From IMG/VR virus record IMGVR_UViG_3300045825_000357, positions 1 to 42,687 of that record: DNA of 42,687 bases, one strand, 5' to 3'. Made by a program: the position numbers and the translations under genes. The notes under the pieces are model-generated. The model worked only from the letters and a program-made list of their open reading frames with translations. It was not told where the DNA came from and searched no databases. Positions 1,454 to 24,014 of the stretch are shown here, one piece after another; position 1 is the stretch's first letter; every line of letters starts with the position of its first letter. The stretch comes from a virus.

Positions 1454-1749
1454 AATCCACACAAACCACCCAAAAACCAGCGTTCTACAAAACACCGTAT
1501 CGCATCGCCATCCGCGCCGAAGGCAAATTCGTCAACGCCTACTGGACGCGCAGCAACACGATGCAAGGCGCCGAGTTGATCGCCTCGATCCACCGGGACA
1601 TCGGCGACGCCAACAGCGAAGCGTTCCAAGGTTTCAGGATGTTGATGGAAGTGGTCGCCGTCATCCTGGGCGAAAGGGCAACCGGGCAAAAAGTGGAAAG
1701 CGTTGAAATCCATGATGCACCGGAGCATGAGAGAGGTGGTAACGCGTGA
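1450..1749 (+). CDS. Hypothetical early protein
   Basis: A 99-residue protein I do not recognise. I chose the ATG at 1450 because it overlaps the upstream stop (ATGA); an upstream in-frame start at 1426 would overlap the previous gene by 28 bp. The N-terminus is basic and polar (KSTQTTQK). The middle looks like a compact alpha/beta fold, and the C-terminus is acidic and His-rich (EIHDAPEHE). The stop overlaps the GTG of the next gene (GTGA), so it is part of the tightly packed early operon. No motif suggests an enzymatic role. Confidence 0.7.
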   Translation: MKSTQTTQKPAFYKTPYRIAIRAEGKFVNAYWTRSNTMQGAELIASIHRDIGDANSEAFQGFRMLMEVVAVILGERATGQKVESVEIHDAPEHERGGNA

Positions 1750-2717
1750 GCTCCGACACCAAAATCGAGTGGTGCGACCACACATTCAATCCGTGGTGGG
1801 GTTGCCAGGAGATAAGCCCAGGCTGCGACCACTGCTATGCCAAGCGCCTGGACAAGCGCACGGGCGGCACGCACTGGGGGCCGGATGCCGAGCGCAGGCG
1901 CACAAGCGAAACCAACTGGAAGCTACCGCGCCGCTGGAATGACCAGTACCAGGCTTTCCACAACCAGCACGGCCGCCGGCAGCGCGTGTTCTGCGCGTCC
2001 ATGGCGGACGTGTTTGACAACAGGGTGCCAGTCGAATGGCGCATGGACCTGTTCAGCCTGATTGCCGACACGCCGCACCTTGATTGGCTGCTGCTGACAA
2101 AGCGCATCGGCAACGTGATGCCCATGTGCTCCGGCGACAGCCTGATGTTTGATGTGATCTGCGAACGGGTATGGCTGGGCGCAACAGTGGTCAACCAGGA
2201 AGAAGCCGACCGTGACATCCCCAAGCTGCTGGCAGTGCCTGCGGCCAAGCGATTTTTGTCAATGGAGCCGCTGCTGGGACCGGTGGCTCTGACGAACATT
2301 CGGCAGCAGCTGGCGGGCGGGAGCTACACAGAGGGCAACGTGCTGGTGCACAAAAGCAGCCTCGACCGCGGCCGTCCACGCCAGGCGCTTGATTGGGTAA
2401 TCGTCGGCGGCGAAAGCGGCCCCAGCGCGCGACCTATGAGCATTCAGTGGGCGCGCAGCCTGCGCGATCAATGCGCGGCTGCTGGCGTCCCGTTCCTGTT
2501 CAAACAATGGGGCGATTGGGCTCCTTACATAACCGCTCAGGAAGGCGAGCCGGGCCGCTTTGCTTTGAACTGGCCAGGCGAGCAGCACTGGTCTTTCATT
2601 GAGTACTCACCACGCCAATTCATCATGTTTGGCGCGACAGGACGTACTACATGGGCGGGAAAGAAAGCCGCCGGCCGCCTGCTCGATGGCATCACACACG
2701 ACGGGTTTCCATCATGA
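1746..2717 (+). CDS. DUF5131 / phage Gp37-Gp68 family protein
   Basis: A 323-residue protein of the phage Gp37/Gp68 (DUF5131) family. The N-terminal signature KIEWCDHTFNPWWGC, followed by SPGCDHCYAKR, is visible within the first 35 residues and gives three closely spaced cysteines (C-x6-C-x2-C). Further family-like segments are FCASMADVF, WLLLTKR, SMEPLLGP and WVIVGGESGP. Members are often compared with radical SAM proteins because of the cysteine triad, but the reaction is unknown. In many genomes the family lies next to a TcmP-type partner; none is seen here. It starts with GTG at 1746, overlapping the previous stop, and its own stop overlaps the next ATG. Full length for the family. Confidence 0.9.
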   Translation: MSSDTKIEWCDHTFNPWWGCQEISPGCDHCYAKRLDKRTGGTHWGPDAERRRTSETNWKLPRRWNDQYQAFHNQHGRRQRVFCASMADVFDNRVPVEWRMDLFSLIADTPHLDWLLLTKRIGNVMPMCSGDSLMFDVICERVWLGATVVNQEEADRDIPKLLAVPAAKRFLSMEPLLGPVALTNIRQQLAGGSYTEGNVLVHKSSLDRGRPRQALDWVIVGGESGPSARPMSIQWARSLRDQCAAAGVPFLFKQWGDWAPYITAQEGEPGRFALNWPGEQHWSFIEYSPRQFIMFGATGRTTWAGKKAAGRLLDGITHDGFPS

Positions 2718-5067: not shown

Positions 5068-5526
5068 CTACGCCATCAGAGACCAATCAGTCCCCACAAA
5101 CGCAAAAACCCCCGCCAGCCTTGCGGCCAGCGGGGGTTGCAAATCTAAAAATCCAGGCTCAGCAGCTCCGGCTAAGCCGTGATTAAAACCCATCAGCTGG
5201 GCGAGTCCCCAGCTGGCCGAACTCAGCGCCATCGCGCGATTCAGCTTCATGGCCCGCTGCAGCCGGTCCTGCTCAGCCTGCCAGCTATGGCCGTACCAGC
5301 GCGTAGTCCACACCGGATAGCTGATATCCGGGTGCGTATCGTCAAAGCGCCCACCCGTGAATTTTGAAAATTTGTGCCCCTCGAACAGCGTTACCGGGCT
5401 GCCGTCCAAGTTAAAGCCGCGCCCCAGCGCCTCGACCTGCAGCACCGCCCGCACGGCTGCCACGTCGCAGTCAAGCGCCAGGGCTGCGTCCAGGTAGTCG
5501 CGCGGCTGAAGGGTGGGCCTGCTCAC
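5068..5526 (-). CDS. N-acetylmuramidase-like endolysin, probably C-terminally truncated
   Basis: A 152-residue protein whose residues about 15-120 look like the N-acetylmuramidase (DUF3380) domain. Visible motifs are the glutamate of LQVEALGRGF, TLFEGHKF, TTRWYGHSW and SASWGLAQLMGFNH. The family domain normally runs on for several tens of residues after the MGFN motif. Here it is replaced by an unrelated tail (about residues 122-152) encoded by the terminator hairpin and attP-proximal DNA; the TAG stop lies inside an arm-type repeat. The GTG start overlaps the upstream stop. It cleaves peptidoglycan if active, but truncation makes this doubtful. It is the second putative muramidase; the other is at 8946-9455. 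Confidence 0.7.
   Translation of the reverse strand: MSRPTLQPRDYLDAALALDCDVAAVRAVLQVEALGRGFNLDGSPVTLFEGHKFSKFTGGRFDDTHPDISYPVWTTRWYGHSWQAEQDRLQRAMKLNRAMALSSASWGLAQLMGFNHGLAGAAEPGFLDLQPPLAARLAGVFAFVGTDWSLMA
5105..5140 (-). terminator. Intrinsic terminator at the end of the late operon
   Basis: Read on the minus strand, CCCCCGCTGGCC and GGCTGGCGGGGG pair as a 12-bp stem with two G-U pairs around a GCAA tetraloop, followed by TTTTTGCGTTTG. It lies inside the 3' part of the muramidase frame. It ends the leftward late transcript before attP. Confidence 0.85.
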
Positions 5527-6376: not shown

Positions 6377-6618
6377 ACCGGGTTCTCCTGGTTGTGTTGT
6401 TCAAAAGACGGATTCATTTTTTTCATTAGTTTTTTGCGGCAATTCATAGCTACGCTGTCGGCTATATAGCCGCGCATATGCAGCCGCACGATGGCCTCGG
6501 CGTCGGCCTGAAAGTGCGCCAGCTTGGCCGCGTCTTTGTAGACCAAGCCCTGCGCGGCCAGCTGCTCAGCTAAGGGCAGCGCCAGGGCGCCAAAGTCAAT
6601 CTCCAACATCTTGCTCAT
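6373..6618 (-). CDS. Hypothetical protein of the second lysis-type module
   Basis: An 81-residue soluble protein, mainly helical, ending in a basic patch (CRKKLMKKMN) and a polar tail. It overlaps both neighbours by 4 bp, so it is translated as part of the same unit. No domain is recognised. Its neighbours, a holin-like protein and a lipoprotein, suggest a lysis-time role, without direct evidence. Confidence 0.6.
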   Translation of the reverse strand: MSKMLEIDFGALALPLAEQLAAQGLVYKDAAKLAHFQADAEAIVRLHMRGYIADSVAMNCRKKLMKKMNPSFEQHNQENPV

Positions 6619-7097
6619 GGGTTTTTAGGCGGTGGCGCTGGGTTTTCCACACGCCCACCGGCCTTGGGTTGGTAACCGCTGCTGTAGGCCGTCACCCGCA
6701 CCACCCGCTCAGGCGGCTTGACAAACGCGCCCGCCACCTCCGGCGGTATCGCCAGCACTTGCGGCGCGACCTCGGGCGATAGCGGCATGATCACCAGCGG
6801 CTCAAACGCCTTGATCAACTCAGGCGCTTTGGCCGCCGGCACCGACGGAGTCTTGCCCACGGTCACGTCAGCCAGCGCCACGCCCACATTTAGCGCCAGC
6901 GCGGCCTGCGCGGCGGCGGCACGGTCGGCCTGCACTTTTTGCACCATGCCCCACACGGCCGGGCCGATGATCAGCACCGCGCCGACGATCTGCTGCACCA
7001 GCTCGGCCGTCAGCCAGCCCTGCGCCACCAGCACCCCGCCGACCGCAATCAGCAGGCTACGCACTGCGCTCAGAGTGCTCTCGCCGGCGGCGGTCAC
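6615..7097 (-). CDS. Holin-like membrane protein (copy 2)
   Basis: A 160-residue protein with two hydrophobic segments near the N-terminus (about residues 10-28 and 34-52). A soluble part follows that contains VTVGKTPSVPAAKAPELIKA, and then a Pro-rich tail. It is paralogous to the 119-residue protein at 9452-9811: both have a TM hairpin and the GxxxAD-TVGKTP block. It resembles small phage holin-type proteins, which open the inner membrane for the endolysin. The longer C-terminal tail is a difference from copy 1. It overlaps the GH12 gene and the next gene by 4 bp each. Confidence 0.7.
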   Translation of the reverse strand: MTAAGESTLSAVRSLLIAVGGVLVAQGWLTAELVQQIVGAVLIIGPAVWGMVQKVQADRAAAAQAALALNVGVALADVTVGKTPSVPAAKAPELIKAFEPLVIMPLSPEVAPQVLAIPPEVAGAFVKPPERVVRVTAYSSGYQPKAGGRVENPAPPPKNP

Positions 7098-8305
7098 TGT
7101 GACACCTTGTAGCCATACACAGCAATGTCGCCGCTTCCTTCCACCGGCTCCACGCCCAGCTCGACGCTGCTGACGTACTCATTGCCCAGCGCCCACGGAT
7201 TGCCTTTTACGTCTTTGCGGGTGGCGACGTGGTTAATGAAGGCGGCCAGGTCAAGCTCGCCGGCGGGTACGGGGAACACATCGGGCACGAAAGCAATCAT
7301 CTTCCAGCCGGTCCTGCCGTAACGCCCGTTCAGCATGCCCGCACAGAAGTTATACAAAAAGGCCCCGTCCCCTCCCTTGGTGGCATAGACGTGATAAAGC
7401 CGTCCTCCAATTGTCACGTCATGGTCATACCAGCCGGGATTTCTTCTATTCGGATGACCCCCATAGTTGCCCCAGTTCTGCAAGGGAATCATGATTTCAT
7501 GGGTGATCGAAGAATTGGCCTTTGGCGAGTCCTGCGCCGGTGTTGACTGGAGCCACAAGTCGTAGGTCAAGTGACCCATGCCGGTTGGCGCCGTGACGTT
7601 CTTCACAGCAAATTTAGTCTTGAGCGATTTGAGCGGCATCCGAAGCGGAAAGAACGTCCCTGGCGTCACACCCGAATTTGCAGTCATGGCGCCATTGGTC
7701 TGCATCACGGGCTGGCCCCAGCTGTAGCCCGGCCTCTGACCGCTGATGATCGCAGGGTAGGCCTTGACCTCGTTGGGGCCTGCCGGCCAGCGCCACTTCA
7801 AGCGGTACGCCACTTCCCCGCCAGCGCCCACGGCCGGATCAACGCCAACTGCCTGCTGGTACTGATTGGCAGCGGCGCCCTCGGTCATGGCACCCAGCCC
7901 CCAGCGGTTGTCTTCAACGTAGTAGGCGTCCGTGGGGTTGCCCACTTGCAGGAACATGTTGTCGTGGCTGCCGACTGCGATGGCGGCCGGGTCAAGCGCA
8001 CCTGCTGGCGGCGGCGGCGGCGTCGGCGGCGGGGCCGGTGGATTGACGGCCGCGTAGGGCTCCCAGTAGTAAGTGCTGACGACTGGCGAATAGCCCGGAT
8101 TGGCAGCTTTGGCCCGGTATAGCTTGCCGTCGATATAGCGCACGATGGCGCCCGCGCTGTACTGCGCATTTTCAACCCAGGCCGGGTAACTGATGGGTGG
8201 TGGTGGAGGGGGTGGAGGGGGCACGGGCGCAGTCTGCGCAGCTACGAATTTCCCCGCTACGTCGAGCCCGGCTTGGGCCTGTTCTTTTGTCGGATCATCT
8301 GGCAT
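7094..8305 (-). CDS. Predicted GH12 beta-glucanase with chitin-binding-type module
   Basis: A 403-residue protein with three parts. Residues about 1-37 end in a run of Pro. Residues about 38-85 look like a CBM5/12 (chitin-binding type 3) module: YPAWVENAQYSAGAIV, YIDGKLYRAKA, YYWEPY. After a second Pro linker, residues about 105-403 resemble glycoside hydrolase family 12: NRWGLGA, LKWRWPAG, EVKAYPAIISGQRPGYSWG, then HEIMIPLQNWG for the nucleophile Glu and VELGVEPVEGSG for the acid/base Glu. GH12 enzymes cut beta-1,4-glucans such as cellulose and xyloglucan. No signal peptide is visible, so it is either released by lysis or virion-bound. It lies between the spanins and a holin-like gene, in the late operon. 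Recognition is by motif only. Confidence 0.75.
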   Translation of the reverse strand: MPDDPTKEQAQAGLDVAGKFVAAQTAPVPPPPPPPPPISYPAWVENAQYSAGAIVRYIDGKLYRAKAANPGYSPVVSTYYWEPYAAVNPPAPPPTPPPPPAGALDPAAIAVGSHDNMFLQVGNPTDAYYVEDNRWGLGAMTEGAAANQYQQAVGVDPAVGAGGEVAYRLKWRWPAGPNEVKAYPAIISGQRPGYSWGQPVMQTNGAMTANSGVTPGTFFPLRMPLKSLKTKFAVKNVTAPTGMGHLTYDLWLQSTPAQDSPKANSSITHEIMIPLQNWGNYGGHPNRRNPGWYDHDVTIGGRLYHVYATKGGDGAFLYNFCAGMLNGRYGRTGWKMIAFVPDVFPVPAGELDLAAFINHVATRKDVKGNPWALGNEYVSSVELGVEPVEGSGDIAVYGYKVSQ

Positions 8306-8308
8306 TTC

Positions 8309-8623
8309 TTACTCCTTGGGGTTAATGGGTGCGATGCAGGCGCGCAGCGCGGTGACGAGCTGCACCTCGTAGCCTTGCCTGCGCTCGATTTCAGCGGCCA
8401 CCGCCTGCACGAACTGATCGAGCGTCGCGTCGGCGGAGAGCTGGTCGGTCGGCATGATGGGCACCTCGGGCTCGGTTTCCCGGCACGCCACGGGAATTGG
8501 AATCTTGACCTGCACCGGCAGCGGCGCAGCGCAGGCCATGAGCATGATGGCAATCAGCGCAAGCATGATGACCGTCGCAATGTTGCGCACCGTGTCCATG
8601 CTTACTTTCGGCTTTTTAGCCAT
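8309..8623 (-). CDS. Outer-membrane spanin (Rz1-like lipoprotein)
   Basis: A 104-residue protein with a charged N-terminus, a hydrophobic stretch and the lipobox LMAC at about residue 31, followed by a Pro-rich region. This is the layout of o-spanin lipoproteins. It overlaps the 3' end of the Rz-like gene by 22 bp in another frame, as is usual for Rz/Rz1 pairs. With Rz it would fuse inner and outer membranes at lysis. It is longer than lambda Rz1, with a helical C-terminus, so an embedded or extended form is possible. Confidence 0.8.
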   Translation of the reverse strand: MAKKPKVSMDTVRNIATVIMLALIAIMLMACAAPLPVQVKIPIPVACRETEPEVPIMPTDQLSADATLDQFVQAVAAEIERRQGYEVQLVTALRACIAPINPKE

Positions 8624-8949
8624 TGCGCCGCCCGGTCGCCAGCCGACTTGCAGTCATCGCCCGGCGTGCTGGCCGGTGCGCTCAGGATGGCGTCCGCACG
8701 TTGCTGGCGCCCTTTGCTTGCGGCTGCGGCTTGCGCCCTCGCCGCCTTGGCTTGTTCCAGGCGCTTGTCGGCCAGCGTGAGTAAGTTGTCTGTGGCGTCA
8801 GAGCATGCCTGCGCCGCGACCCCGGCCGCTTTTAGCTGTACGCCCTGCTTGGCTACCGTATCGCGCGCACCGAGCCAGAACAAACTCAGCGTGGCATTGC
8901 CGGCCAGGCTGATGCCCAAAGCGATCAGCACCATGGCGACGGTGGTCAT
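8602..8949 (-). CDS. Inner-membrane spanin (Rz-like)
   Basis: A 115-residue protein with an N-terminal membrane anchor (residues about 4-26, VAMVLIALGISLAGNATLSLF). A long Ala/Gln/Lys-rich helical region follows that can form a coiled coil, with two cysteines (ACSD, DDCK). This is the usual i-spanin layout. It overlaps the endolysin upstream by 4 bp and the Rz1-like lipoprotein downstream by 22 bp. It should span the periplasm with the o-spanin and complete lysis. Confidence 0.8.
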   Translation of the reverse strand: MTTVAMVLIALGISLAGNATLSLFWLGARDTVAKQGVQLKAAGVAAQACSDATDNLLTLADKRLEQAKAARAQAAAASKGRQQRADAILSAPASTPGDDCKSAGDRAAQWLKSRK

Positions 8950-9455
8950 GCGAGCGTGCCGCCCGAATCGCGGTAAAACGCCTGAAGCACTTCAAGCGGG
9001 TTTTCCCGCTGGCCGTAATTTGCGCCGGGCAGACTTGCCCAAATATTTTTTACACGCCAGACAGCCGCCGCAAAATAGCCGCTGTCGATGAAATCTATCG
9101 CTTTGCGTTCGCGGATCAATTGAATGGCCCAAGCGTCTTGCGCGGCCGGGCTGAAGGCGCCCAGCGGATACTTGCTTTTGTCTTGCAGGCCCAGCAAATC
9201 GCGGTAATGAATCCAGTCCCGGAGCATGAACTGATAGCGGCCGCTTGCGTTGCTGGTCAAGCCTTTTTTGTTGATGATTTTCGAGCGCCTGCCCTTGGCA
9301 AATGGGTGGTCTGAGTAATCGGTGAATATCTCGGGCTTGCGGTCCAGGCCGGTCACGATCACATCGTAGCCATTGTTTTTTGTGATCGGATGGGTGGACG
9401 TGCCTTCTGAAAATGCAATCATGTCGAGAAACGCCGCACGGTTGCCGGGGTTCAT
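8946..9455 (-). CDS. Endolysin, GH104 / lambda R-like lytic transglycosylase
   Basis: A 169-residue protein that resembles the lambda R (GH104, phage lysozyme) type throughout: FLDMIAFSEGT with the catalytic Glu, NNGYDVIVTG, FTDYSDHPF, SNASGRYQFM, FSPAAQDAWAIQLI and VWRVKNIWASLPGA. It cleaves the glycan strands of peptidoglycan. No signal or SAR segment is visible, so it depends on a holin. It overlaps the holin-like gene upstream by 4 bp and the Rz gene downstream by 4 bp. It is full length and is the more trustworthy of the two muramidase-type enzymes here. Confidence 0.9.
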   Translation of the reverse strand: MNPGNRAAFLDMIAFSEGTSTHPITKNNGYDVIVTGLDRKPEIFTDYSDHPFAKGRRSKIINKKGLTSNASGRYQFMLRDWIHYRDLLGLQDKSKYPLGAFSPAAQDAWAIQLIRERKAIDFIDSGYFAAAVWRVKNIWASLPGANYGQRENPLEVLQAFYRDSGGTLA

Positions 9456-9811
9456 GAGGGCTCCAAAACGATGGGTGGAGTGGTAGGCGCGACGACCACG
9501 ATCTGCGGTGCTATTGCCTTGATTGCGGCGGGCACGTCGACAGGCGCGATGGTCGGCGTTTTTCCCACTGTCGAATCAGCAATCACGATGCCAGCAGTGA
9601 TGGCGACTACCTCTCTGGCCTTGGTCTTTGCTTCCGAAAAAAACTTTTGCCAAGCTCCCCAGGCGACCGGCAACATCACCGCGATGGCGCCGATTATCTC
9701 TGTAGCGTTCGATTCAGACACATAGCCGCGTGCGGTAAACCAGGTGCCCGCGACGATGAGCATAGAGCGCAAAAACGACAAAACGGCTTGAAGATTGGCG
9801 GGATTTCCCAT
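9452..9811 (-). CDS. Holin-like membrane protein (copy 1)
   Basis: A 119-residue protein with two TM-like segments (about residues 9-26 and 38-55), a short charged linker with Lys residues, and the block VIADSTVGKTPTIAPVDVP. It lies directly before the endolysin and overlaps it by 4 bp, the classical holin position. It is paralogous to the product of 6615-7097. It would form the inner-membrane lesion that releases the endolysin. The call rests on topology and context. Confidence 0.75.
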   Translation of the reverse strand: MGNPANLQAVLSFLRSMLIVAGTWFTARGYVSESNATEIIGAIAVMLPVAWGAWQKFFSEAKTKAREVVAITAGIVIADSTVGKTPTIAPVDVPAAIKAIAPQIVVVAPTTPPIVLEPS

Positions 9812-9838: not shown

Positions 9839-10729
9839 CTACTTGCCCGGCTGAATCACCACCGGCGCTGGCGTGGTCTGCTGCGGCTGCACGTAAATGA
9901 TGGCCGGCGTCTGCGCTGCGCTCTTCTCGCCATTGCTGCCGCGCATGCTGACAATCAACCCACCCAGCGCAATCCCGACCGTCACCACAGCCACCATTAC
10001 GCCGGTGCTGGTGCTGATGCCCTCGGCCTTGCCGCTGCCAGAGCTTTGCGCCGCGCGCAGCGCCTTGATCTCGCTGAGCATTTCGACCTGCGCCGGATCG
10101 GTCACGCCCGCTTTGCCCTTGCTCTCATATTGAGAGCGCTCAAGCAGCGCCAGCCGTTCCGTGATCTGGGTTTGCAGAGACTGCTGCTGCTGGGCAAAGG
10201 TCGTGGCGGTGGTGGCCACCAACGCGCGCAGCGCATCGGCGCTGGCCGCTACCTGGTTGGCCAACACGCTGGCCTGCTGCGTCGCCCGCTCGCTGGCCAC
10301 GGCCACGGCGGCTACGTCGACAGACCGGATGGCATCAATCCGTTTGGCTTCGGCAATCGCCAATTTCTCCTGGTATTCAGCCCTCAATTCCTCGGTGATG
10401 CGGACATGCTCGGTGTTGGACTTGTGCAGCTCCGTGATCGCCTGGCGCGACTCCATCGTGTGTCGCGCCTCCGCGTCCTGCTGGCGCTGCGTGTACTGGA
10501 TGGCAAGATTGCGCAAATCGTCAACGCGCCGCGTCTCAGCGCTGGCCAGCTGCTCAATACGTCGCACCTCGGCCTTGACCAGGTCGTCGATGCGTGCGCC
10601 CTGTCCGTCGCGCAACGCATCGAGCCGCTCGATGGCGGCCAGCATGAGCGCGCGGACGTTCTCGCTCGGGTCTTTGCCCTGGGCTCCCAGGACTTGATTA
10701 GAGCCTGCGGCGTTTTCAGGGGACGGCAT
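9839..10729 (-). CDS. Coiled-coil protein with C-terminal membrane segment
   Basis: A 296-residue protein. Residues about 20-215 are charged and helical with many Gln, Ala and Arg, consistent with a long coiled coil. A Gly/Ser-rich hinge is followed by one TM segment (about residues 242-260, GVMVAVVTVGIALGGLIVS) and a Pro/Gln-rich tail. Similar proteins occur between the tail fibre and lysis genes of other phages, but I know no established function. It may tether a complex to the inner membrane at lysis. The start ATG follows shortly after the tail fibre gene. Confidence 0.8.
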   Translation of the reverse strand: MPSPENAAGSNQVLGAQGKDPSENVRALMLAAIERLDALRDGQGARIDDLVKAEVRRIEQLASAETRRVDDLRNLAIQYTQRQQDAEARHTMESRQAITELHKSNTEHVRITEELRAEYQEKLAIAEAKRIDAIRSVDVAAVAVASERATQQASVLANQVAASADALRALVATTATTFAQQQQSLQTQITERLALLERSQYESKGKAGVTDPAQVEMLSEIKALRAAQSSGSGKAEGISTSTGVMVAVVTVGIALGGLIVSMRGSNGEKSAAQTPAIIYVQPQQTTPAPVVIQPGK

Positions 10730-10793: not shown

Positions 10794-13700
10794 TCATCGC
10801 AGGAACTGGATCAAGCCCATATAGGCATTGCCCATCTGCTTGAAACCGTCAAGGCCCAGGTGAGTGGTATCCGCCTTGAACAGGTCATCGCCTGTTGCGC
10901 CCGAGTAGTCGCTAAACGGCTTTTCATAGGCATTGTCAAAGCCATAAAAACGGTCTACAACCGAGTGGTAATCAAGCACGTAAATGCTTTCCGCTTCACG
11001 CCCGCCATAGTCGGCACTGAGCTGCTTGGCAAGTAAGTAGTAGCCACGCTTCCTGCGCTCCGTATCCAGCGTACCCTGCCGCCCCTGACGGCCCGAGCTA
11101 ACCGGGATGCCGACGATGAACTTGACCGCTGGCGTATCGGCTTTGACACTGGCAATCAGGGCGTCATATTGGGTTTTGTAAGCTGCGTAGCTTGCTGTAA
11201 AGGTGACGTCCGTCGCACCGGCAAAGTCATTTGTGCCAAGCAGTACGTGCACGATCGTCGGCGCTGCGATACCCCATGCCGTCCGGTATTTGGCATAACC
11301 GAATGCCAGCCCGCCGAATGTGGCCGAAGCGATTGCTACCCACGCGGAGCCATCCCAGCGAATGAACCCGCCGGCCTCGCCCATTACATCGTTGACGTTC
11401 GGCGCGAGTTTGCGCCCAGTCGCCGCATTAAACAGTGCTTTGGTGCCGGTGAAACTGTCCGCGTTATAGCTGGGGACTGTAGCGTTGGCGTCAATCCAGC
11501 AGCTTGTCGGCCCATAGAACAAATACCCAGCGGTCACCGGCTGCATGAAGGGCGAGAAGAACCCACCCGAACCGCCCTGGGCATCAGCCGAAAAGAACGT
11601 TGACATTGCCCATCCGCCCTGTCCTTCGCAGCGCACTGCCGCCACATTGCCGGTACGGGTTCCGCCGAACGTCAGGCCCGCAGCAGCGGTAGTTCCAAGA
11701 ATCACATTGGCCCAGGTCATTCGCCCGGTGTAGCTGTCACCAATGTTCTGGATATTCACCGCCGTGGCTTTCGCTGCGTCTGTCACGATGACACTAAATG
11801 CTTTGACTATCAGCGCAACAAAGGCAGCATCGGCAGCGGTGGCGGTGCCTGCAATGGTCGTGCCAGACTGGCCAATGAACGGTGTAAGTTTGGTGGCTGG
11901 CCCGGCCTCTTTGCCACCGGCAAATGCAATGCCGGTGCGCCCCTTGTACGCGGAATAGTCCTTGGTGATGTTCTCGTGGTAAACAGCAATCTCTTTGCCG
12001 TAAGGTACATATTGCTTGGCCGCTATCGCCAGATAGTCGGTGTCGGGGGTGACCGGTGCGCCTGTCAGTTGCGCATAGGTTATTCGCAGAGGTAAACCAG
12101 ACGCATCCTGCAAAACGAGGCCATAAGACTCATAAGCCGTCGCCGCAGTCCCTAGTTCCATTTGATATGTGTTGACGGTTGCATGGGACACAGAGACACG
12201 CATAAACACAGCGCCAATAGGGGGTGTGAAGCCGGAGACTGCAACACTCGAACCACCAGCCACTGGCGCCTTGTTTACATCGAAAAATACGGTGAATCTG
12301 CTTCCCGTAGTCCAGTACGCCGAACCGGGACTAACTGGGATGTAGTCCGACAGGTCATACGACGCGCTGGCGCTAAGCACCAGGGGCGCACTTGGGTCAA
12401 TAAAGAATCCGGGGGTTACCGTTGCTTTGTTGAACTTGTTCTTGCCGGCCTGAAAAAAACTTGTCTTTTGTAGCGTCACGGCACCATCTGCCAAGCTCGG
12501 TGTATTTATGGAACCGGCGGTCATCGGTATCGACACGGGAGCGCCGCCAGGTCCGCTCAGCACCAGCTTGAAGGCTTCATACGCTGTTGATACCGCCCCG
12601 GCCTCTACCTGAAACACTGCCCATTGCGTATTGGCCACCATCGCCCGCAGATAACAAGCTCCTGCTGGCGCTGTTTGTGTTTTATTGCTATCTGCAAATA
12701 GGCTGCCAGAAATGAAGACCTTGCTGGCATCGAACCAAGCAAGTTGGTTTTTATAAGAAACCGTGTAGGCAACGCCAGCGGACACGGGGATAAACCCCGT
12801 TTCGTTGTAGCTTGCATTGGCAGTCAGCAACCCCGTATTGCCATCAATGAAAAAACCAGAGACAGCGTCTGGGTCCAGCGGGTTGAACAGGTTCTTGCCG
12901 GGCTGGAGAAACCTGGTATGCCGGTACGCTACAGAGGCCAGAGCATGCTTCGATTCAGACACACCGCCATCAGGTAATTGCGCAGGCAGCAGAGTAGGCG
13001 AATACGGCACATATACGGTCGTAGCGCTGCCCAACTCCACCTGATAAATACCCCACTGTGCCGGGGTAACGTCTGCCCGCATATAAAACGCACCGGCAGG
13101 CGCAGTCAGTGTGGCCGTGCCGCCCGTAACCGTAGCATCACCGCTCAAGAACAATTTGTTGGTGTCATACCACGCCAAAATGCGCTTGTGCGACACCGTG
13201 TAGACAGTGCCTGCCGTCACGCGAATAAAGGGCGTCACGTTGTAGCCAGCATTGACGCTAAGAGCGCCCGCTGCGTCCATGAAATAACCCATCACCGCGC
13301 CATCAGCAGGGTTGAACAGGTTCTTGCCAATCTGCAAGTCAGCCTTTAGCTTTTGCCTCTCAGTCAGCGCGTCTTGGTCAGTGCCAGTTGCCTGACTCAT
13401 TACAAAGGTCTGCGTCGTGCTGGTGTTGCGCAGGTAGTTGGTGAAGCGGGTAAGACTGTCCGTAGGGTTGGGCTTGACCCAAAAAGTCGCGCCGTCAGCC
13501 ACTGATGCCCGGCCCAATGCAATAGTGTCTTTTGCGGCCAGGGCTACGGCGGAGGCCAGGGACGCAGCCTGCGCCAGGTCGCGCGCGGCTTCGGCTGCTG
13601 TCCTGGCTGTGGCGGCCAGTCCAGCAAACACGCCCGAGGCTACGCGGCTGACTTCGGATGCTGTGGCGCTACCAGTCGCCGCCGCCGAAGCTGCAACCGA

Positions 13701-13946
13701 TGAGGCCTCGTAATTAATCCATGCACCAGATCGATAGACCATCATGCCGACCGGTGCGCTGGTGCGGAAATACATGTCTCCATCGATGATGGCCCCGCCC
13801 AGCGGGTTGACCGTGGGGTCGGCGTTCAGGGCGCCGTAATAGCGCAATTCAAAGTCGGCCGTGTGGTCATACAGCCGCATCAGCCAGGCTTTAAACGTGG
13901 GCCAGCTTTGCTGCACGTCAAGCGCTTCTCGCATCGGTAGTGGCAT
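10794..13946 (-). CDS. Tail fibre / receptor-binding protein with SGNH esterase domain
   Basis: A 1,050-residue protein. The N-terminus (about residues 1-80) looks like a tail-docking region. An Ala-rich helical segment follows (about 82-150). Three tandem modules then begin at about residues 206, 349 and 499. Each opens with GKN and FN, continues with a GxFID-type turn and an AWxD or VFFD strand, and ends with QxELG or QVEAG. These look like carbohydrate-binding beta domains. The C-terminal part (about 700-1050) has SGNH hydrolase blocks: IGDSYT, LLGTNDF, and DTTHLGLDG with the Asp-His pair. It probably binds and deacetylates a surface polysaccharide. Confidence 0.85.
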   Translation of the reverse strand: MPLPMREALDVQQSWPTFKAWLMRLYDHTADFELRYYGALNADPTVNPLGGAIIDGDMYFRTSAPVGMMVYRSGAWINYEASSVAASAAATGSATASEVSRVASGVFAGLAATARTAAEAARDLAQAASLASAVALAAKDTIALGRASVADGATFWVKPNPTDSLTRFTNYLRNTSTTQTFVMSQATGTDQDALTERQKLKADLQIGKNLFNPADGAVMGYFMDAAGALSVNAGYNVTPFIRVTAGTVYTVSHKRILAWYDTNKLFLSGDATVTGGTATLTAPAGAFYMRADVTPAQWGIYQVELGSATTVYVPYSPTLLPAQLPDGGVSESKHALASVAYRHTRFLQPGKNLFNPLDPDAVSGFFIDGNTGLLTANASYNETGFIPVSAGVAYTVSYKNQLAWFDASKVFISGSLFADSNKTQTAPAGACYLRAMVANTQWAVFQVEAGAVSTAYEAFKLVLSGPGGAPVSIPMTAGSINTPSLADGAVTLQKTSFFQAGKNKFNKATVTPGFFIDPSAPLVLSASASYDLSDYIPVSPGSAYWTTGSRFTVFFDVNKAPVAGGSSVAVSGFTPPIGAVFMRVSVSHATVNTYQMELGTAATAYESYGLVLQDASGLPLRITYAQLTGAPVTPDTDYLAIAAKQYVPYGKEIAVYHENITKDYSAYKGRTGIAFAGGKEAGPATKLTPFIGQSGTTIAGTATAADAAFVALIVKAFSVIVTDAAKATAVNIQNIGDSYTGRMTWANVILGTTAAAGLTFGGTRTGNVAAVRCEGQGGWAMSTFFSADAQGGSGGFFSPFMQPVTAGYLFYGPTSCWIDANATVPSYNADSFTGTKALFNAATGRKLAPNVNDVMGEAGGFIRWDGSAWVAIASATFGGLAFGYAKYRTAWGIAAPTIVHVLLGTNDFAGATDVTFTASYAAYKTQYDALIASVKADTPAVKFIVGIPVSSGRQGRQGTLDTERRKRGYYLLAKQLSADYGGREAESIYVLDYHSVVDRFYGFDNAYEKPFSDYSGATGDDLFKADTTHLGLDGFKQMGNAYMGLIQFLR

Positions 13947-22881: not shown

Positions 22882-23244
22882 TCAGGGGTTGGGATTGGCG
22901 GGGTCAACCGGCACGGCGGGCGGCGTTAGCGCATCAGCCTCTTCGAAGCGCGTGGCCAGCGCCTCGCCTTTGGCCTGCAGGTCGTCCAGCAGGGCCTGGT
23001 CTTCAGGCGTGATGGCCCCAGGGGTCGCCTGCAGCTCGGCAATCTTGGCGTTCAGCGCGGCGATGTCGTCGCCAATGCCGGTAAGCGAGGCTTCCAGGCG
23101 GGCGTTATGTGCAGCTTGTGCTACTGCGAAGTCGGAGATAGCGGTCATGGTGTTTCCTTGCTGTTTGGAGAGTTGCGCCAGTGATTTGAAAATATCCTCA
23201 CTCACGCTGGCATCGTGAATATGGACTTCGACTTCGATTTTCAT
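22882..23244 (-). CDS. Coiled-coil protein with possible internal start
   Basis: A 120-residue protein from the ATG at 23244. An in-frame ATG at 23148 has a better ribosome binding site (AAGGAAA, 4 bases upstream) and would give 88 residues. The C-terminal part has helical, coiled-coil-like repeats (DDIAALNAKIAELQATPG, DQALLDDLQAKGEALATRFEEA) and a Pro tail. The role is unknown; it follows the tail tube gene. Confidence 0.65.
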   Translation of the reverse strand: MKIEVEVHIHDASVSEDIFKSLAQLSKQQGNTMTAISDFAVAQAAHNARLEASLTGIGDDIAALNAKIAELQATPGAITPEDQALLDDLQAKGEALATRFEEADALTPPAVPVDPANPNP

Positions 23245-23255
23245 GATTGAAAATC

Positions 23256-24014
23256 TCAATACTGGGTGATGTAGCCCACGCTGCCGGCCGCATCGGCAAA
23301 GGCCTCGGCGTCCAGGTCATTCATGGTGAAATCATCATTCTTGAACGGGAGCGCCAGCTTGCCCATGACGTTGGCGTTCAGCTTCATGACCAGCGTCTTC
23401 CCCTGGTACATGTTGTAAAACAGCGCGGCAAAAGTGGGCGTGTAGCCCATCAGGTTGTTGCTGATGGCAAACAGCTGGCTGGTCGGGCTGGCGGCGATCA
23501 GGTATTCATAGCTGATCAGCACCGGCAGGTTGGCATCCACGGCGGCGAAGGTGTAGGCCGCGCCCGTCAGGCTGTACTGGCCGGTGGCGGGGGCGCTGGC
23601 CACGCGCGTCATGATGGCGCCGGTGGCGCCGTTGGTGACGCCCATATCGGCCACAAAGGTGCCGGTGCTGGGCGGCACGACGGTGACCGCAAAGGTGGTG
23701 ACCGCCGGCACGATTTTGGGCTCGTCAATCACCGCGCTCTTGCGCACGGCAGTCGGCTGGTTGCCCAGAAACAGCGCGCCCAAAGCGGCGGCGCTGAAGT
23801 CGCCGCTCTTGGCCTTCCAGCCGATCTTGGCTTTGCCGCGCGCCACCGCGACGGGGAATTGCTTTTCGCCGTGCAGCGTCTTGGTCTCGAAATCGAAATC
23901 GACGCTGACATCCTGCAGGATGGCAATGGCGACCGGCGTGGGGGTGGTGATGGGGTTGCCCGCTGCATCCTGAATCGGCAGGCAGATGAGCTTTCCGGCG
24001 CCAAAGGTAATCAT
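23256..24014 (-). CDS. Major tail tube protein
   Basis: A 252-residue protein with the features of a siphovirus tail tube subunit: DVSVDFDFETKTLHGEKQFPVAVARGKAKIGWKAK early, an Ig-like or beta insert in the middle (FVADMGVTNGATGAIM), and GKTLVMKLNANVMGKLALPFKNDDFTMNDLD near the end. It forms the stacked rings of the tail. It lies between neck genes and tail chaperones, as in most siphoviruses. Confidence 0.85.
   Translation of the reverse strand: MITFGAGKLICLPIQDAAGNPITTPTPVAIAILQDVSVDFDFETKTLHGEKQFPVAVARGKAKIGWKAKSGDFSAAALGALFLGNQPTAVRKSAVIDEPKIVPAVTTFAVTVVPPSTGTFVADMGVTNGATGAIMTRVASAPATGQYSLTGAAYTFAAVDANLPVLISYEYLIAASPTSQLFAISNNLMGYTPTFAALFYNMYQGKTLVMKLNANVMGKLALPFKNDDFTMNDLDAEAFADAAGSVGYITQY

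Follow-up and report, generated by a model that had tools for sequence, protein, structure and literature searches.

A predicted GH12-family glucanase encoded beside the holin gene in the lysis block of a temperate siphovirus and of two other phage types

The window analyzed here, positions 1 to 42,687 of IMG/VR record IMGVR_UViG_3300045825_000357 (42,687 nucleotides in all), belongs to a temperate siphovirus with an integrase, a lambda-J-like tail protein, and a head-protease-type capsid gene; a DUF5131 gene (1746 to 2717, plus strand; Pfam, 298 bits) lies beyond the integrase. An open reading frame (ORF) of 403 amino acids (aa) at 7094 to 8305, with an ATG start preceded by a strong Shine-Dalgarno sequence (AAGGAG), falls within a block of lysis genes, all of them on the minus strand. 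Directly downstream is a holin gene of the Pam3 gp28 family (6615 to 7097; PF23987, E value of 3.6e-14), and the two genes are joined by a 4-bp GTGA overlap (7094 to 7097) that combines the stop codon (TGA) of the former with the start codon (GTG) of the latter. Upstream, at a distance of 3 bp, is a gene for an Rz1-like outer-membrane spanin (8309 to 8623; lipobox LMAC, weak match to phrog_456), which overlaps that for an Rz-like inner-membrane spanin with an N-terminal transmembrane (TM) segment (8602 to 8949), assigned by position and topology only. An earlier note, made from the sequence of the window, had placed the 403-aa protein between spanins and a holin-like gene, and this arrangement was confirmed. 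The block continues with an endolysin (8946 to 9455; phrog_90, E value of 4e-51) and a second Pam3-gp28-type holin (9452 to 9811), and its upstream edge is a coiled-coil protein with a C-terminal TM segment and an IIYVQP..VVIQP tail (9839 to 10729). Downstream, past a few small genes, an N-acetylmuramidase (5068 to 5526) represents a second endolysin.

The 403-aa protein was assigned to glycoside hydrolase family 12 (GH12) by both sequence and predicted structure. A Pfam scan matched GH12 (PF01670) over aa 127 to 397 (E value of 1.3e-6; 29.2 bits, cutoff 27), and a phmmer search of the PDB returned endoglucanase entries only, led by the GH12 xyloglucanase of Bacillus licheniformis (2jem/2jen; E value of 1e-8); a profile built from eight homologues matched the B. 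licheniformis entry at 5e-12. Foldseek searches with AlphaFold models of the whole protein and of the domain gave GH12 structures as best matches (E values of 1.9e-11 and 1.7e-12, respectively), with TM scores of 0.67 to 0.69 by target length, the models themselves being of modest confidence (pTM of 0.51 and 0.67, pLDDT of 54 and 62). Together, the Pfam match, the homologue profile, and Foldseek placed the catalytic jelly-roll domain at aa 115 to 401 (7103 to 7963). The family call of the earlier note, for which a GH12 profile search and a predicted fold had been named beforehand as checks, was thus borne out by both. The match is a distant one: identity to characterized GH12 enzymes is about 22%, the GH12 profile matched 5 of the 8 homologues at an E value of ≤1, and one homologue (L021) scored 20.4 bits alone, below the Pfam cutoff.

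Both catalytic glutamate motifs that had been read from the sequence are present as well. E270, the predicted nucleophile (codon at 7496 to 7498), lies in ITHEIMIPL and aligns with Q in 2jem and A in 2jen; E386, the predicted acid/base (codon at 7148 to 7150), lies in VELGVEP. Both residues align with the catalytic residues of 2jem and were invariant among the homologues aligned. The nearby E382 is replaced by Asn in two distant homologues (L030 and L031) that retain E386, making E386 the better candidate for the acid/base. The jelly-roll, the paired catalytic Glu, and a YDxWL motif are common to the phage protein and B. licheniformis XG12, whereas the extra loops, the N-terminal carbohydrate-binding module (CBM) of the CBM5/12 type, and the predicted absence of a signal peptide set the phage protein apart. 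The product is, on sequence grounds, a GH12-fold protein with a catalytic Glu pair, and its enzyme activity is predicted.

Ahead of the catalytic domain, the protein begins with a phage-specific stretch of 25 aa (8231 to 8305; helix predicted at aa 7 to 22), whose motif MPxPTKxxAQAxLxVA was kept across all three phage types described below. It is followed by a CBM5/12-type module (aa 42 to 84; 8054 to 8182) flanked on either side by Pro-rich linkers. The module matched Pfam CBM5/12 below threshold (aa 42 to 80; 15.4 bits, cutoff 26.2), yet it was 55 to 61% identical to the best CBM5/12 modules of the genus Polaromonas, and these relatives do attain the Pfam cutoff; most of seven carrier proteins scanned matched the CBM5/12 profile, several of them at or above the cutoff. 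The earlier reading of a chitin-binding-type module with Pro linkers agrees with these similarities. Within Polaromonas, the query was matched in 30 of 87 genomes, mostly via the CBM part, and this type of CBM was found fused to galactose-oxidase-like, CE2/GDSL, and GH18-like proteins. No signal peptide was detected in the 403-aa protein, as judged from hydrophobicity only, in agreement with the earlier reading.

A closely similar gene block was found in other phages. Four IMG/VR contigs (L004 to L007) encode a GH12 protein 84 to 88% identical to that of the window; in three of these the order is coiled-coil TM protein, GH12 protein, and holin, and the fourth (L007) stops within the GH12 gene. 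In L005 and L006 the block runs on through small genes to an intact N-acetylmuramidase of 197 aa, of which the window version lacks the last ~74 aa. The complete holin-endolysin-spanin module upstream of the window GH12 gene is absent from the phages of L004 to L007 and may have replaced the damaged muramidase in the window phage. L005 represents an HK97-type siphovirus, and its HK97-type capsid and prohead protease mark it as a different phage from that of the window, yet its GH12 protein is 87% identical. A third phage type, an 86-kb phage with 48% GC (L021/L022), encodes a GH12 protein that is 50% identical and likewise has the N-terminal segment, CBM, and Pro linker. Its gene order is coiled-coil protein, small ORF, GH12 protein, ATGA overlap, holin, GH24 lysozyme, and Rz-like spanin. 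The second holin of the window is closest to the GH12-adjacent holin of this phage (54%); a separate scan with that second holin as the query found no relative. All of the phage homologues described here stem from six IMG/VR contigs in three metagenomes; the viral scans were motif-based, drew on few patterns, and were not exhaustive.

The domain order of the GH12 protein and the 4-bp overlap with a Pam3-gp28-type holin are common to the three phage types, and the location of the gene with holin, endolysin, and spanin genes is conserved in more than one phage, as it would be for a component of the lysis cassette. When the 86-kb phage was compared with the whole window (E value of ≤1e-4), the shared parts were limited to the tail of the coiled-coil protein, a 118-aa ORF, the GH12 protein, and the holin. 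The 118-aa ORF (L081, 16440 to 16796) directly precedes the GH12 gene of the 86-kb phage; its window counterpart (22882 to 23259; 54%) sits far from the lysis block, among structural genes. Because little beyond the lysis block is shared by the three genomes, the GH12 and holin genes appear, from these comparisons, to be exchanged as a unit among otherwise unrelated phages. Contamination of a metagenomic contig by host DNA was rejected as an explanation, since several other virus contigs also have the gene inside a phage lysis block.

The coiled-coil protein with its C-terminal TM segment marks the upstream edge of the block in all three types (window, 9839 to 10729; L005, 7213 to 7947; L021, 4459 to 5190), and its tail is conserved as IIYVQPQ..PVVIQP.K. 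Relatives of this protein in further IMG/VR contigs (L090 to L094) stand without a GH12 gene, and because such phages exist, the GH12 enzyme looks like an accessory rather than an essential part. In one of them (L091, 6785 to 7951), the slot behind the coiled-coil gene is filled by a protein of 388 aa that includes a polyproline segment; it matched no Pfam family and is possibly another accessory enzyme in the position of GH12.

The closest cellular proteins were a pair of secreted GH12 proteins, almost the same as each other, from one Polaromonas metagenome-assembled genome (MAG) (L001; 83 to 84%), followed by secreted GH12 proteins of Ramlibacter genomes (L002, L003, and L024), whose GH12 domains were 54 to 66% identical. 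The Polaromonas enzyme has a CBM and linkers of the same type as the phage protein, and its GH12 domain is 83% identical. In contrast to the phage forms, the cellular forms carry a signal peptide or lipobox, their CBMs, where present, are C-terminal rather than N-terminal, and no lysis genes were found around them in Polaromonas or Ramlibacter. The two copies in the Polaromonas MAG (L001, 84 to 1292 and 5569 to 6687; L028) have catalytic domains with 99.6% aa identity (dS of 0.03) and differ in export signals and CBM content, one of them being split by a contig end. Across the bacterial family, GH12 was matched in 8 of 401 genomes (E value of ≤0.001).

In the phylogenetic tree, the window type was sister to Polaromonas (99/97), and the 86-kb phage fell elsewhere within the same clade; with these separate positions, the label "phage" needs two changes on the tree. 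The simplest readings of this topology would be that the catalytic domain was recruited twice into the same phage scaffold, or once with a phage-host transfer in addition. Apparently the gene was taken from Polaromonas-like hosts, that direction of transfer being the one to which the tree and the secreted relatives point. Between the window and L005, the GH12 gene showed purifying selection (dN of 0.061, dS of 0.50, dN/dS of about 0.12), and its GC content was close to that of its phage in each case (0.615 in 0.624; 0.487 in 0.477 for the 86-kb phage). The low dN/dS and the matched GC together indicate that the gene has been maintained in phages and is not fresh cargo.

Functional glycoside hydrolases of other families are already known from viruses; what appears new from these searches is one of the GH12 family, placed in a lysis block. 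No GH12 relative was found by tblastn among 50,697 phage records, and the structural model had no match at an E value of ≤1e-3 in a library of viral structures, although it did find GH12 in the PDB at 1e-12. The literature searched yielded no paper on a phage GH12, string matches being only of the GH120/GH127 type. As far as these collections, viral structures, and papers reach, no phage had previously been seen to encode a GH12 enzyme. Its nearest precedents are glycoside hydrolases of soil viruses, namely the functional GH75 chitosanase V-Csn and a GH5 endomannanase cited with it (PMC9485262), which are likewise phage-borne polysaccharide hydrolases but of other GH families. In the portion of that text searched, neither holin nor lysis is mentioned for the soil-virus hydrolases (PMC9485262), unlike the window gene with its holin overlap.

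What might such an enzyme do? Release of phages from Gram-negative cells is usually pictured as three steps, carried out by holin, endolysin, and spanin. Because the GH12 gene precedes the holin gene in the window phage and in two unrelated virus types, its position suggests that cutting a surrounding beta-glucan may be part of the release of these viruses. We regard it as an evenly balanced proposition that the protein is an auxiliary, lysis-stage endo-beta-glucanase that sets progeny free by cutting a beta-glucan which surrounds the lysed cell. The protein would be made late, in translational coupling with the holin, and, lacking a signal peptide, would accumulate in the cytoplasm until the action of holin, endolysin, and spanins lets it out of the cell. 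The CBM5/12-type module could then anchor it on cell-surface or matrix polysaccharide, where the GH12 domain would cleave a beta-1,4- or mixed-linkage glucan, so that progeny would not be trapped and new hosts would come within reach. Secreted enzymes of Comamonadaceae in the Polaromonas/Ramlibacter group would be the source of both the catalytic domain and the CBM, and the GH12 and holin genes would move together as one lysis block that phages can exchange. Secretion of the enzyme by a lysogen is not expected, because the signal peptide is absent and the 3 bp to the upstream gene leave no room for a promoter. Of the three roles considered in the earlier note, the best fit is the freeing of progeny from a glucan matrix, given the holin overlap in three phage types and the missing signal peptide; the cellulose-like nature then proposed for that matrix did not gain support, as described below.

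Another of those roles, a carbon-supply or community auxiliary gene, seems rather unlikely. Here, enzyme freed at lysis would digest plant, algal, or microbial glucan and feed neighboring, often lysogenic, kin, a use in keeping with the secreted cellular enzymes that are its closest relatives and are likely used on environmental glucans, with the few bacteria of the group that have a GH12 gene of their own, and with the functional glycoside hydrolases of soil viruses (PMC9485262). Yet the protein is predicted to lack a signal peptide, in the window its gene lies too close to the upstream neighbor (3 bp) to have a separate promoter, and the holin overlap conserved in three phage types would be unexpected of a general metabolic cargo gene.

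The remaining role, a virion-borne depolymerase acting at entry, is improbable. Phage polysaccharide depolymerases are commonly part of the virion tail; they likewise cut polysaccharide around the host, and they resemble the window protein in combining a CBM with a glycanase, the CBM region even matching a tail-fiber PHROG weakly (E value of 0.09). The position of the gene, which in all three phage types lies in the lysis block, with its end overlapping the holin gene, rather than among tail genes, and the failure to recognize a tail-fiber N-terminal domain or trimerization region nevertheless disfavor this role, and the window virion already has a tail-fiber-like protein of its own. That 1,050-aa protein (10794 to 13946) has a C-terminal GDSL/SGNH esterase-like region, below the Pfam cutoff, and is a candidate virion enzyme against acetylated polysaccharide.

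Less probable still is an accessory wall or envelope lysin, in which the CBM would bind GlcNAc-containing glycans and the GH12-fold domain would have shifted to an envelope polymer, aiding the endolysin. Chitin-type GlcNAc polymers are frequent ligands of CBM5/12 domains, the neighbors are holin, endolysin, and spanins, and the window muramidase is truncated, but the fold and catalytic residues are of the beta-glucan hydrolase type, the cellular homologues are exported outward, and the cassettes possess endolysins of their own. Recently captured cargo without function is hardly credible: the 83% identity of the window-type domain to the Polaromonas enzyme would suit it, but purifying selection among the phages, GC adjusted to each of them, intact catalytic residues, two separate tree positions, and occurrence in three phage types all stand against it.

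For the favored role of a glucanase released at lysis, the nature of host and substrate matters. Gene relatedness points to a Polaromonas-like (Comamonadaceae) host for the window phage. Prophage G303 has the closest head genes (capsid 62 to 64%, portal 77%), but its tail is different and GH12 was not found in it. Canonical bacterial cellulose was considered as the substrate and is not supported: in five host-side genomes bearing the cellular GH12 or CBM, a search for BcsB found none, so cellulose of the canonical kind may not be a product of the presumed hosts. The substrate could instead be a glucan made independently of Bcs or one from the environment.

A broader and more tentative proposal is that lysis in these systems has an extra layer, the phages of sheath- or matrix-forming Comamonadaceae carrying an exchangeable, holin-coupled glucanase that regularly works alongside holin, endolysin, and spanins. 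By analogy, mycobacteriophages add lysin B against the mycolate layer, although the barrier proposed here would be extracellular beta-glucan rather than mycolate. The fixed place of a glucanase before the holin, in phages of three unrelated types, would indicate a further barrier to release, an extracellular glucan; if the proposal is true, these bacteria would have a beta-glucan coat built without known Bcs machinery. The finding thus predicts a surface property of Polaromonas-like bacteria and supplies a gene marker for phages of this kind.
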